This document shows positions 8,051-49,318 of a stretch of 64,000 nucleotides of DNA, piece by piece. The stretch lies in NCBI GenBank assembly GCA_029834535.1, contig JAQMWT010000093.1, positions 1 to 64,000 on the forward strand. Direction: 5' to 3'. Position 1 is the first letter of the stretch. Every line of letters starts with the position of its first letter. The DNA is from Chrysophaeum taylorii (taxonomy: Eukaryota; Sar; Pelagophyceae; Pelagomonadales; Pelagomonadaceae). Position numbers and translations under genes: made by a program. The notes under the pieces were generated by a model, which was not told the origin of the DNA, made no database searches, and worked only from the letters and a program-made list of their open reading frames with translations.

Positions 8051-8079
8051 ATAAGGAAGGTAGGTTTCTGTCTATCTAT

Positions 8080-9110
8080 CTATCTTCTCCTGGCCGCGCA
8101 GGAGGTGCACGCCAAGGGGCGGCGGCGGCGACCAGTCTCGCCGCCGGTAGTTGTAGAGCACCGATCGCAAACGAGGAGGAGGAGGCGGCACGTTTCGCAG
8201 CGCGCGCGGCGCGTGCGGCGGTCGCTGCAGTAGTCGTGGACGGGGCCCGACCCGCAGGCAGCACACGCGCTCGCGGCGGCGGCAGTCTCGCTGCCGACGG
8301 GCTTCCGCGCGAACCGAGACTCGCGGATCGAAGACAAACAGTCGTCCGCAGAACAAGCCGTCGTCGCCGTCCCGCTCAACCTGCTCGAGGTATCGGACGA
8401 CGCCGCCGTCGAGCATAGCGACCTCCGCGCTGTTCGTTCTCGCCGCGATGAGCTCGGCGGCGCGTTCGCAACGCACGCCGCCGGTGCAGTAAGCCAAAAC
8501 GGGTGCTCCGTCGGGAATGGGTGCGGACTCGAGCCACGACGCAAAGTCGGAGGTCGACCGGATGTCTGGCGCGAGGACCGTCGCCGCGCCCTCGAAGCGA
8601 CCTATCGCGCTTTCGTAACCGTTCCTCACGTCGATCACCACCGACTCGGGTTTCGCCAACGCGGCGTCCCACGCGTCGCGCTTGAGGCGCCGGATCGACG
8701 TCGCCTTCGTTGCCGGCGCCCTTCCAAACGTCACGATTTCTTCCACCACGCGCCATCTGTAGGCGTCGAAGCCCGTCTCGCGACGCAACGACGCGTCGCG
8801 CGCGCGCCGTCTCTTCGTCGCCCACGCGGGTCAGGTTGAACTCCGTCTCAGCGAACACGTCCCGACGTTCGCGCCGAGCGCGCAACATGTGCGCTTCGAG
8901 CGCCGCCATCGGCCCGCCCAAGGTCGCGTTCACGCCCTCGCGCGAGACGCGCACTCGTCCAACGAGACATTCGCGCGAAAACGACGCCAGCCATTCTCCC
9001 AACTCGGATGGCTCATCGATCTGCCCAATAGCGTAGTACAGCAACACGGCCTCGATTTTCGTCGGCGCGCTCCTGCTCATCTCTACCGCCTGGTAAGAAA
9101 CCGACAACAA
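8080..9110 (-). CDS. TrhO-type rhodanese, tRNA uridine 5-hydroxylase family (frame-disrupted)
   Basis: Homologue of bacterial TrhO (YceA/UPF0176), which hydroxylates U34 of certain tRNAs. N-terminal domain: VLLYYAIGQIDEPSELG and VGRVRVSREGVNATLGG. Linker: FDAYRWRVVEEIVTFGR. Rhodanese domain: VVIDVRNGYESAIGRFEGA with catalytic loop YCTGGVRCERAAE, then LFVFDPRV. The C-terminus carries Cys pairs (CAACGSGPVHDYC, RCETCRLLLLVCDRC, ACTSC), matching the zinc-finger-like tail of bacterial TrhO. One frameshift lies in the GCGCGCGC tract near 8795-8805 and another near 8270-8300. The start may be 9110 or the internal MSRSAPTK. A second TrhO module occurs at 45-47 kb. Confidence 0.85.
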
Positions 9111-9554
9111 GCTAGTTGCGCACGAGATTTTATCGTCGTCGCCACAGATCGCTCCCTACAGTGTGATCAATCAATACGGGCACGAGATCCCTCCCTGAAT
9201 CATGGCGAAACCCCGGCGGTTCAAGGGACCTTTCGCTCGCTCGCTCGCTCGCTCGCTCGCGACAGGTGAGGACAAAACGACGAAAAGGGACCCCACCCAT
9301 GCGGCAACACGTGTTCTAGTTCGTGCGAGACCCAGCGCGGGAATAGCCCGCGGTCGATGAGCTGCGTTACAACCACATTACTGGCGCCACGACGAGCTGA
9401 TACGCGACGGTGACGACGACGAGGCTAGGAGGATTGCCCTCCGCGAACGAGGTGTCCGTCAAACAGGACGAGGACATGAAGTGTGATGCGAGGAGCCCGC
9501 GCGCGCGGTATCCAAGAAGGGCAGGAGTAGGCGCGGCGCGGGAGGCACATCGTG
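9111..9554. other. Intergenic region with GCTC repeat
   Basis: A (GCTC)n run lies at about 9233-9260. On the minus strand, 9367-9545 could encode a hydrophobic segment ending VVVTVAYQLVVAPVMWL, possibly an exon, but nothing confirms it. Confidence 0.3.
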
Positions 9555-45091: not shown

Positions 45092-47421
45092 TCACAAGTC
45101 GGGGCGAAGTCGAGCGATGGTCAATCCGTCACGTAGGGGCAGGACGATTTGCTCGAAGCGCGGGTCCTTCCGTAGCTTGATATTGAACTCGTGCCTGCGG
45201 TGCAACGTGAAAGGCGAAAGGTCGCCGACGCTTTGAGGAAGGGAAGAAAGGAAGGAAACGCCGGGCTCGTGTGACATGCTCTGTTGTATCGCCCTGTCCC
45301 GTCGCTCGGCCTTGGCAGCAAGTGCGGCGGCCTTCTCGGCGGCGTCCTCGTCTTCGCCAGCGAGCCTCGCACGCGCCCTCGCACGATGTCGTGCTCGGCG
45401 GTCGCGGTCGTCGGCCTCTTCGGCCGAAACGGGCGCCCCGGCCGACTCGACCCCCTGTCGCGGACGCTGAGCGGCCAAAAGTGCAAAAACAGAAAGATCA
45501 CCAGTATGCGGCCCTTCCACAAGGTGTTGTCGGCGACGATGAGGCCGCCCGGGCGGAGGCGGGCCGTGTCGATTAGGGCGTCGACGGCGTTCGCGTAGCC
45601 CTTTTTGTCGGCGTCGAGGTACGCGACGTCAAACGGATCGAGTTTCTCGAGGGTCGTGCGAAGAAAATCGGTGGTGTCGGCCTCGACGAGGTCGATCGGA
45701 GCCCAGTCGGGGTGGGCTGCTGTCGCGTAGTGGAAGTGGGTGCGCGCGACCGCGGCCGCGCGCGGATCGCGGTCGACGGTAACCACGCGGCCGGTCGCGC
45801 CGAGCGCCGAGGCAAGCCATAGCGCACCGTAGCCGCAAAAGGTGCCGAGTTCGAGGGCGCGGGTCGCACCGTGGAGGCGACACAGCATGGCGAGGAGGCG
45901 GCCCTGCGTCGGGCCGCAGAGCATGCGGGAAGCGCGCGGCCAACGGGCAGACGCGTCGAGGCGGACGCGGGCGAGGACGGGCGGCTCTTCGCCGCTCAGG
46001 CGCTCGGCGTAGGCCTCAATCTCGTCGGATCGTATGGTCTTCCGCGCGAGCGCGAGAGCCTCGGCGGCGCGAACGTCGAGGGGCTCGTCGTCGCCGAACG
46101 CGGGCACGTCGCCAGACACGGGCTCGCCCATTCGATCGTTGAAAACGTAGTTAACGCCGCGGAATTGCGAGGCCTCTTCGACTCGGTCTTCGCCCTTTTC
46201 CTCCCGAAGATGGCGCGTGTAGTTGACCACGCCGCCCGCGAGTCGCGTCACGTTCTTGAACCCAAGCTTTTGCTTGACGTGCGCGCCGGCCTTGACGCAT
46301 CGAATCCCGCCCGTACAAAACATCATGATCTCGGTCTCGCGCGGCAGGTCTGCGAGCTCGCGGTCGAGCTTCTCGTACGTCTCTTTGAAGGTCTCGGTGC
46401 CGAGGGGCCGGGCGCCGGCGAAAGTTCCCACGGCGCTCTCGTAGTGGTTTCTGCAATCCAGCACGACGACCGGCGCCGCTCTCTCGGCGGCGGCGGCAGC
46501 GGCGGCGGCGGCGGCGGAACCACCACCAAAGTCGCCGCCGAGCTTGGCGTGCCAGTCGGCGGGCGAGGCCTCGCGGCCCGCGTCGCTCAAATCGAGCACG
46601 GCGGCTCCGTCGTCCGCGACGATCTGCGCGCGCGGGCGCACGTGGAGCGCCCGGAAAGGCTTGCGGGCGTCGAAGTCCGCGCGGCTCACCTCGACGTCGA
46701 GGTTGAGCGGCGGAACCGGACCGAAATAGACGCCGTCGCGCGCGAGTCTCGAAAACCACTCCCCGTGGTGCGCCTCGAAATCTGCCATTGTTTCGACCGG
46801 CACCGCGAGCTGCGCGTTGATACCTTCGGGCGCCACGTACGCGCGACCGAGCGCGCCAAACCGATCCCACGCCGCGGCGAGCGATGCGCGCGCTGACTCG
46901 ACATCCCACCCGCTCGTCGCGTTCGCGACCTCCAGCGGAGACTCGAAAAAGCAGTACCACGACAGCATCTGGTACGCGCTCGCTTCGATGAAAGATTTGT
47001 TCTGCCGCCGCGACGAACCCTCGACCGTGCCGCCCCGCGCGACGACGCGCACCCGTAAGCGCCCCTCTGACGATTCGAAAGACCCCTCTACCGTCTCGAG
47101 CCCGTAGTCCACGCGCCGCAACGGAGGCACCGCGACCCCGATTGCTTCGCGCACAGCCTCTTCGCGCCCGCCGGCCTCCACGAACACCCGCGCCCGACGG
47201 TGCTTGGACGCGAGACGAAGCCGAGCCTTGAGCGCCTCGTCCACGACAAAGCTCACCGGCCGCAGGGCCTCCTCTCTAATCATTTTCCTTCCCGTTCCCT
47301 CGTGCCGAGATATCATCATCCTTGTCGTGCCCCGCGCCACCGTCAGACACCGCGCTGCGACGGCCATCGTCGCCACCGCCCACATTACCTCAACTTCAAC
47401 CCGAACCCCCTCACTAGACAC
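45092..47421 (-). CDS. Fusion of TrhO-like tRNA uridine hydroxylase and TrmR/CCoAOMT-like O-methyltransferase
   Basis: One 764-residue protein from two exons (47421-45502, 45466-45092; 35-bp intron 45467-45501). Residues ~1-45 are hydrophobic/basic and may target an organelle. A TrhO N-terminal module follows (YQMLSWYCFFESPLE, GRAYVAPEGINAQLAVP), then a rhodanese domain (VVVLDCRNHYESAVGTFAGA) with catalytic Cys in MMFCTGGIRCVKAG (~366) and GGVVNYTRHL. From ~490 a class I methyltransferase: TQGRLLAMLCRLHGATRALE, LGTFCGYGALWLASALG (SAM motif I), DVAYLDADKKGYANAV, GGLIVADNTLWKGR. After the intron comes a charged insert, then FNIKLRKDPRFEQIVLPLRD and GLTIARL, the family end. In Bacillus, TrhO makes ho5U34 and TrmR methylates it to mo5U34. 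One polypeptide doing both is the inference. The zinc-like tail of TrhO is absent. Confidence 0.9.
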
Positions 47422-48375: not shown

Positions 48376-49318
48376 CTACACGACCGAGGCACCCGTGTCC
48401 GGGCCGACTTGAGTGTCGACCTTGGAGGCGTCGACGTCCGAGGCCGGGGGGATGGGGTTGGGGGAGATTTCCCAGGTGGCAACTTTGTAGCCCATAACTC
48501 TGTGAAAGTCTCGATACTTGACGTCCGTAGGCAGGAGGTACATGGGCCAGGGGTCGACGCCGAAGACGTCGACCCAGGGCACGGGCGCGAAGTTCCCCTT
48601 GGGCCCGCGTTTGCGCATGCGATCGATCGTCCCGATGCCCGTCACGATGGCATAGATCTGGTTGTACATCATGGTCGCGACAAACATGAGCGTCGCGATC
48701 GCAATCGCGCAGAGCGCGGCTACCATGCCCGTCGCGGTCGAGCTGCGACGAGACATGAATCAACGATAAATAAAAGTCATCTTACCTGTTGTATCTGACT
48801 TCGTGCAGGTAGTTGTAGAGGATGAGGGAGAGGGAGTAAACGCATTCGACGATCGTGTAAAGCAGGAACAGCATGAAGTGCTTTTGGTTATTCGCGCCGA
48901 TGCAATTGTTCATCCACGGACAGTGGTGGTCCATGCGCACGATGCATCGATTACATATCCGACAGTGGTGCGACCGCGGCGGTTTGTACGCGTCGCACCG
49001 CCCGCAGATTGTCTCGGGGATGCCCGACTCGCTCGCTCGGATGAGCGGCTGTGCGTGTCGCGGAACGGCACCCGGATTGGTGAACATCGTCTTCAGCTGG
49101 GATATCAGCGCCATGAACGAGATGATAAAATAGATCGGCACGTTATAAATCCCCCACCCACCGATAATGGCCACGTACAGAATCACCACGTCCGAGTATA
49201 ACGTTAAGACCCACAGGATTGTCGACATGACAGCCCCGGGATTATCACGCTTGTTGAACCAGTATCGGGCGCCCTCGTGGGTGCCGCAGACGGCCGCGTC
49301 GAGCTCGTCCATTTTCAC
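48376..49318 (-). CDS. DHHC-type protein S-palmitoyltransferase
   Basis: Attaches palmitate to cysteines of membrane-associated proteins; Golgi/ER or plasma membrane. Exons 49318-48786 and 48742-48376 (43-bp intron) encode 299 residues with four transmembrane segments ([76 protein letters not shown]). NPGAVP (DPG-like) precedes the Cys-rich domain [20 protein letters not shown] with [19 protein letters not shown] near residue 126. It resembles ZDHHC3/7-class enzymes in layout. The C-terminal tail is cytosolic and Pro/Asp-rich. Confidence 0.93.

Follow-up and report, generated by a model that had tools for sequence, protein, structure and literature searches.

The wobble nucleoside mo5U34 is, to our knowledge, known only from bacteria. 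The closest described systems are found in Sakai et al. 2019 (PMC6599085), which in its accessible part lists Phytophthora sojae, P. ramorum and Phaeodactylum tricornutum as carrying a yceA-trmR fusion and terms all three bacteria. The fusion served as a clue to yceA being TrhO, the pathway proposed was ho5U34 to mo5U34, and xo5U-type modification was suggested in eukaryotes on the basis of their TrhO homologues; no test of a fused protein was found in that part of the paper (PMC6599085). Among the E. coli TrhO alanine mutants described there, residues C200, T201, G203 and R205 were needed, K112A gave hardly any rescue and R114A gave none. The tRNA ho5U34 O-methyltransferase of B. subtilis is TrmR (YrrM, 5zw3), and a superfamily relative, Rv0187, methylates free ho5U, with no significant activity on ho5U-tRNA as far as the accessible part of PMC6543040 goes. 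In Synechocystis RNA mo5U has been reported (PMC12860351, accessible part), and no mo5U or ho5U measurement from any fusion-bearing organism was found in the literature searched.

The gene considered here belongs to Chrysophaeum taylorii and lies in the window, i.e. the whole 64,000-nt stretch of DNA that was analysed. The stretch opens a contig of 167,556 bp, of which it covers the first 64 kb, in a 70.8-Mb assembly. A minus-strand open frame of 774 codons (47445-45121) contains a TrhO half and most of an O-methyltransferase (OMT). The deposited counterpart, CTAYLR_006446 (P0001), is a protein of 714 aa with the same domains. The features of the locus are:

45092..47385, minus strand: whole fusion gene, predicted to give 721 aa when translation begins at the ATG at 47385 and two introns are taken out
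45502..47385, minus strand: exon 1, coding for the N-terminal domain, the TrhO half and the OMT as far as DNTLWKGRIL
47032..47280, minus strand: N-terminal domain, predicted ubiquitin-like (beta-grasp) arrangement, a weak structural prediction
46621..46905, minus strand: UPF0176_N, acylphosphatase-like part of TrhO (E 3.4e-9)
46213..46479, minus strand: rhodanese domain (E 3.4e-8)
46297..46317, minus strand: CTGGIRC loop, counterpart of E. coli TrhO C200-C206
45502..45996, minus strand: Methyltransf_3 core of a cation-dependent OMT (E 4.8e-27)
45604..45615, minus strand: DADK metal-binding motif
45526..45531, minus strand: DN metal ligands within DNTLWKG
45455..45501, minus strand: intron 1, 47 nt, GT-AG, with the junction as in deposited P0001 and flanks matching the homologue P0004
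45276..45454, minus strand: exon 2, Arg-rich portion of the OMT substrate loop, predicted to form two helices (P0001 residues 605-625 and 630-654)
45195..45275, minus strand: intron 2, 81 nt, GT-AG, in frame and free of stop codons, missing from the homologues P0002, P0004 and P0013
45092..45194, minus strand: exon 3, OMT C-terminus (HEFNIKLRKDPRFEQIVLPLRDGLTIARLRPDL, stop)

The main frame departs from the family at DNTLWKGRIL, and the OMT C-terminus, NIKLRKDPRFEQIVLPLRDGLTIARL, sits in a separate frame (45628-45092) which on its own matches Methyltransf_3 positions 175-202 with 18.3 bits, below the 22-bit cut-off. Removal of intron 1 restores the frame and results in GRILGVESAGAP, the homologue P0004 having GRVLGVEGAGAP, and removal of intron 2 results in QQSMHEFN, identical in P0002 and represented by QQAMHEFN in P0004 and QQALHEFN in P0013. 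In the deposited P0001 the initiating Met is that at 47283, downstream of the ATG at 47385; intron 1 is spliced out and intron 2 kept. This retention adds 27 residues (P0001 655-681) with no counterpart in P0002, P0004 or P0013, and pLDDT is below 50 over most of the retained residues 657-680 in the model of the deposited protein; judging by the homologues and the model, the extra residues are probably false and derive from the retained 81-nt intron. The initial annotation had described one continuous frame with a TrhO module, an active-looking rhodanese loop and a complete methyltransferase, which holds for the TrhO half and most of the OMT, but it is wrong as regards completeness, the C-terminus lying in another frame behind the introns of 47 and 81 nt. 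Upstream of the fusion gene, at 48376-49318 on the minus strand, there are neighbouring frames, one of which has a DHHC-type motif, a signature of palmitoyltransferases.

The profile search of the frame 47445-45121, a check which the initial annotation had proposed, places UPF0176_N, Rhodanese and Methyltransf_3 each over the Pfam cut-off. These matches are far above chance level and the fusion is real; together with the CTGGIRC loop at 46317-46297 they confirm the TrhO N-terminal module and the rhodanese loop. A Pfam match for the N-terminal domain (47032-47280) was looked for and none was found. The NCBIfam TrhO model NF001133 gives an E-value of 8.2e-39 and 133.5 bits, below its 170-bit cut-off, which is a bacterial threshold set here against a diverged eukaryotic protein, so that the gene is termed TrhO-type rather than a TrhO equivalog. 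The predicted structure (AlphaFold) of P0001, the deposited protein, has a mean pLDDT of 85.4 and a pTM of 0.76, and its Foldseek matches include the TrhO structures 4f67 and 9j5o (B. subtilis TrhO with tRNA-Ala) as well as OMTs.

The same architecture is widespread. A first search with the two-domain region as query gave 26 proteins, 23 of them combining a TrhO-side domain (UPF0176_N or Rhodanese) with the OMT, and an alignment search gave 237 proteins, with Methyltransf_3 plus UPF0176_N or Rhodanese present in 119/120 among the matches listed. In both searches approximately 8000 candidates were scored and only proteins whose length was 0.55-1.75 times that of the query were admitted, a limit which favours fusions and leaves lone TrhO uncounted. 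Fusion-bearing names include pelagophytes, Ochromonadaceae and Ochromonas (chrysophytes), Ectocarpus, Phaeothamnion, Triparma (Parmales), many diatoms and Vitrella, and three Eimeria species appear in the first search. Many rows are metagenome proteins, some come from transcriptomes (MMETSP entries), and some carry the automatic JGI name 'predicted sulfurtransferase/predicted O-methyltransferase YrrM'; an Alexandrium label among the diatom rows may reflect contamination. The fusion is thus conserved across many stramenopiles and some myzozoans, which answers the search for the domain pair in other algae suggested in the initial annotation. The idea that two adjoining genes were read as one by an erroneous gene model can practically be dismissed, given that a single open frame spans the TrhO half and most of the OMT and that the joint architecture recurs in both searches, partly in transcriptomic entries. 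The fusions of P. sojae, P. ramorum and Phaeodactylum tricornutum were not met by name among the matches listed. A remark in the initial annotation that it knew of no such fusion described in a eukaryote is overtaken by the report of the yceA-trmR fusion in Sakai et al. 2019 (PMC6599085, accessible part). What was already known is therefore the stramenopile trhO-trmR fusion, with the TrhO half followed by the OMT half in one gene, and what is added here is the loss of Rhodanese_C, by which the pelagophyte branch differs from the fusions in the accessible part of that paper, and the position of the OMT half outside the TrmR clade in the trees built.

The TrhO half shares UPF0176_N and rhodanese domains with E. 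coli TrhO/YceA, and when P0001 is aligned to the latter, C200, T201, G203 and R205 correspond to C, T, G and R, and K112 and R114 both correspond to Arg, so that R114 is kept and both positions are basic. CTGGIRC is found in 137 of 138 proteins taken without loop preselection, the only exception (P0025) beginning inside the loop. Unlike E. coli TrhO, the C. taylorii protein has an extra N-terminal domain and a fused OMT, and the profile search of the fusion gene gave no match to Rhodanese_C (PF12368), the cysteine-rich domain present in the E. coli enzyme. Among 132 aligned rows that had been chosen by length and by the presence of a CTGGIRC-like loop, the cysteine pattern of this domain is kept in 116 and absent from 16 (the C. 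taylorii gene counted twice), with the named species of the latter being C. taylorii, Pelagophyceae sp. CCMP2097 and Aureococcus, all pelagophytes. Three further rows without it are P0014, which joins the pelagophytes in a starred OMT clade of the 85-row tree discussed below, and P0055 and P0106, which are placed near them weakly in the same tree. As judged from the alignment, the pelagophyte branch has undergone a domain loss relative to the other aligned fusions. Between the end of the TrhO part and the OMT there are 56 residues in C. taylorii; among the 14 rows listed, the seven others without Rhodanese_C have 54-107 and the six that possess it have 86-177.

Since Rhodanese_C is gone, the pelagophyte TrhO half might no longer be a hydroxylase, serving instead as a sulfurtransferase or a tRNA-binding scaffold, and the several further TrhO-family genes of C. 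taylorii are in line with this. Such a change of function is given a low probability, however, because the positions examined by mutation in E. coli are conserved, with Arg in place of K112, and because the putative TrhO of Legionella, 4f67 (265-aa chain), likewise aligns over the N-terminal and rhodanese parts only.

The OMT half has the Methyltransf_3 fold with the metal ligands D, D and N, as in TrmR: in the same 132 preselected rows the ligand D646 is D in 129, and D681/N682 are D/N in 128, the remainder being gaps. It shares with B. subtilis TrmR (5zw3) the superfamily, the layout of metal ligands and a Lys/Arg after DNxLx, and differs in having DADK where TrmR has DAAK. Its substrate loop has 82 residues in C. 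taylorii, with a median of 58 in fused rows and medians of 34-38.5 in other groups. The net charge of this loop is no more than slightly positive in the fusions: its median over 125 fused rows is +1, with -1 for bacterial kin, +2 for TrmR and +2.5 for two cyanobacterial proteins of the 3cbg type. Lys/Arg after DNxLx is present in all 123 fused rows with the searched pattern (9/132 do not show the pattern), in 22/23 long third-search matches of at least 250 aa, which we infer to be mostly eukaryote-like, and in 5/6 sequences of the TrmR set, compared with 9/95 short third-search matches, 3/74 bacterial loci and 0/12 MysB. On these counts the residue may mark tRNA substrates.

Three OMT trees were built with 78, 86 and 85 rows, the last being the best sampled. 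In all three, TrmR, CCoAOMT/3cbg and the main fused group stand apart, with inner branches partly without resolution. Two of the 27 fused rows in the 86-row tree (P0112 and P0137) fall outside the main group and stand alone, and in the 85-row tree 25 fused rows and four short proteins, namely P0148, P0149 (from Tetraparma), P0152 and P0154, form a starred clade (97/95). The nearest relatives of the fused OMT halves are the short P0152 and P0154 inside this clade, followed by mostly Bacteroidota OMTs; the union with this Bacteroidota-rich sister clade, which includes one Acidobacteriota row, has values of 93/92 and is not starred. The standalone Bacteroidota OMTs (about 212-216 aa) differ from their fused sisters in being unfused and in having mostly Ser after DNxLW. 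According to the AU tests, a clade of 27 fused rows and the four short proteins (31 rows) is not rejected (p 0.53), and a clade of 25 fused rows without the four is rejected (p 0.024). Nor do they reject a grouping of the OMT half with TrmR: p is 0.57 in the smaller set, where the constrained tree is even better by 2 log units, and 0.074 in the best-sampled one. The term 'TrmR-like' used in the initial annotation is thus right as to the shared superfamily, but the half lies outside the TrmR clade in the best-sampled tree, even if the union of the two is not rejected.

Plant CCoAOMT (1sui), the Synechocystis OMT 3cbg and cyanobacterial MysB belong to the same cation-dependent superfamily, and the OMT half could accordingly act on a small molecule of the catechol, caffeoyl-CoA or mycosporine type with no role in tRNA methylation. 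The fused OMT and MysB come together in the 78-row tree, and their grouping is not rejected in the smaller set (AU p = 0.27); in the 86- and 85-row trees the fused OMT is in another clade than CCoAOMT, 3cbg and MysB. The union with CCoAOMT is rejected in both the smaller set (p = 0.011) and the best-sampled one (p = 0.013), so that the nesting within small-molecule (caffeoyl-CoA or catechol) methyltransferases, named in the initial annotation as contrary to its reading, was not seen. With the fusion to a tRNA enzyme also kept across stramenopiles and some myzozoans, a small-molecule substrate is quite improbable.

In the TrhO-half tree (39 rows, including five of eight other bacterial loci and four of six paralogue loci) 25 fused rows and one C. 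taylorii paralogue form one starred clade, which adjoins the TrhO of E. coli and of three Bacteroidota and is apart from four cyanobacterial TrhO. Because of the placements in the OMT and TrhO trees, cyanobacterial descent is not favoured for either half, and the few rows available are suggestive of a Bacteroidota-like donor.

Of 25 bacterial genomes encoding a related OMT (a 3cbg-clade member in three cases, MysB in one), nine gave a TrhO match and 16 gave none, although the genomes are possibly incomplete, and the TrhO loop motif was found at none of the 80 related OMT loci in the sequence stretch examined around each. Neighbours were partly checked at five Bacteroidota loci, and at three of these the OMT is next to RlmN, Dtd or RbfA. 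The sister OMT is located directly before rbfA in some Bacteroidales (L149; also L027, L072 and L093), and it adjoins a D-Tyr-tRNA deacylase in Spirosoma (L082) and RlmN in Flavobacterium (L017). The neighbours are not translation genes at L030 and L067 (Bacteroidota) and at L016, L024 and L058 (outside Bacteroidota).

These data bear on the idea that the TrhO half makes ho5U34 whereas the product of the OMT half is a different one on tRNA, at another hydroxylated base or position, the fusion merely co-localising the two activities. The position outside the TrmR clade in three trees, the long lineage-specific substrate loop of 82 residues and the translation-linked neighbours of some Bacteroidota kin would suit such a division of labour. 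It is nevertheless unlikely, as ho5U made by the same polypeptide would be a hydroxylated base at hand and the fused OMT and TrmR have in common a Lys/Arg following the DN motif.

Several observations concern related genes elsewhere. Among 31 cyanobacterial genomes having both TrhO and an O-methyltransferase, the two are at most 3 kb apart in seven (e.g. L101), and the three of these O-methyltransferases that were placed in a tree are all of the 3cbg type, making the cyanobacterial TrhO-adjacent 3cbg-type OMT a candidate mo5U enzyme. The window itself contains pieces of a second TrhO-family gene at 8072-9155 on the minus strand (L015), with UPF0176_N at 8829-9047 and the loop CTGGVRC; the pieces are split over frames and the gene therefore probably has introns. 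A near-identical start is present on contig C36 (L014). The C. taylorii genome gave eight UPF0176_N matches (contigs C435, C9, C471 twice, C651, C36 and C93 twice) and five Rhodanese_C matches by profile search, which makes for an expanded TrhO family, with some copies perhaps being duplicate contigs. Out of seven Methyltransf_3 matches in the genome, only that of the fusion gene shares its contig with a UPF0176_N match. TrhP, a member of the Peptidase_U32 family, hydroxylates tRNA in bacteria, and an open frame of 983 aa on contig C415 (70637-72835; L150, L151), in which two stretches match Peptidase_U32, codes for a protein which might hydroxylate independently of the fusion. Another TrhO fusion is represented by the metagenome protein P0026, in which UPF0176_N and rhodanese are combined with a pseudouridine synthase domain of the RluA type (PF00849).

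Both parts of the initial proposal, a TrhO-type half and an OMT of the TrmR/CCoAOMT superfamily, are upheld, with the catalytic residues kept in each, and because the halves are joined and both residue sets are kept, a bifunctional U34 hydroxylase/O-methyltransferase is plausible. From sequence, an enzyme converting U34 to ho5U34 and then to mo5U34 is the best reading and a rather probable one. It draws on the active-site residues conserved in both halves, the recurrence of the pair in both searches, the use of the fusion as a clue to TrhO, the lack of a CmoB match, the Lys/Arg after DNxLx and the translation-linked neighbours of some Bacteroidota kin. The position of the OMT outside the TrmR clade, the result for Rv0187, the few co-occurrences with TrhO and the 80 OMT loci lacking a TrhO loop motif count against it, as do the related loci whose neighbours are not translation genes, the loss of Rhodanese_C in pelagophytes, the Peptidase_U32 protein, the low positive charge of the substrate loop and the lack of a mo5U or ho5U measurement in the literature searched. 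In the proposed mechanism, a nuclear-encoded two-step enzyme would act on the tRNA wobble position: the TrhO half would use O2 to convert U34 to ho5U34 in some, not all, tRNAs of bacterial type, as in E. coli, and the metal- and SAM-dependent OMT half would methylate its 5-hydroxyl to give mo5U34. The fusion would favour hand-over, as the intermediate need not leave the polypeptide, and in pelagophytes the enzyme would be active despite the absence of the cysteine-rich domain at the C-terminus of TrhO. The search of the C. taylorii genome gave no CmoB above the cut-off; being a profile search exon by exon, it is a weak one.

The substrate, the order of steps, the product and the compartment are all read indirectly here, with plastid and mitochondrion as candidate compartments. 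The initial annotation had placed the enzyme in an organelle with bacterial-type tRNAs, which may or may not hold: the N-terminus of the C. taylorii fusion is ambiguous for targeting and the N-termini of its relatives differ. The rows from Seminavis, Nitzschia (Nitz4) and Ochromonadaceae begin with a hydrophobic segment and then show a Phe motif, an arrangement which we take to resemble plastid presequences, and other rows do not.

More tentatively, and with less confidence than the enzymatic reading above, it can be proposed that SAR eukaryotes possess mo5U34 made by one channelling enzyme, both halves of which have Bacteroidota-like and not plastid-like kin, and that in pelagophytes this enzyme does without the cysteine-rich TrhO domain and has a ubiquitin-like N-terminal domain and a long Arg-rich OMT loop, possibly a replacement tRNA grip. 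The natural loss of Rhodanese_C in pelagophytes offers a ready test of the role of that domain. If the product is mo5U34, algae, and possibly plastid-bearing parasites, would have a bacterial-type wobble modification with both steps in one protein, and the suggestion of xo5U modification in eukaryotes contained in the accessible part of Sakai et al. 2019 would be borne out.
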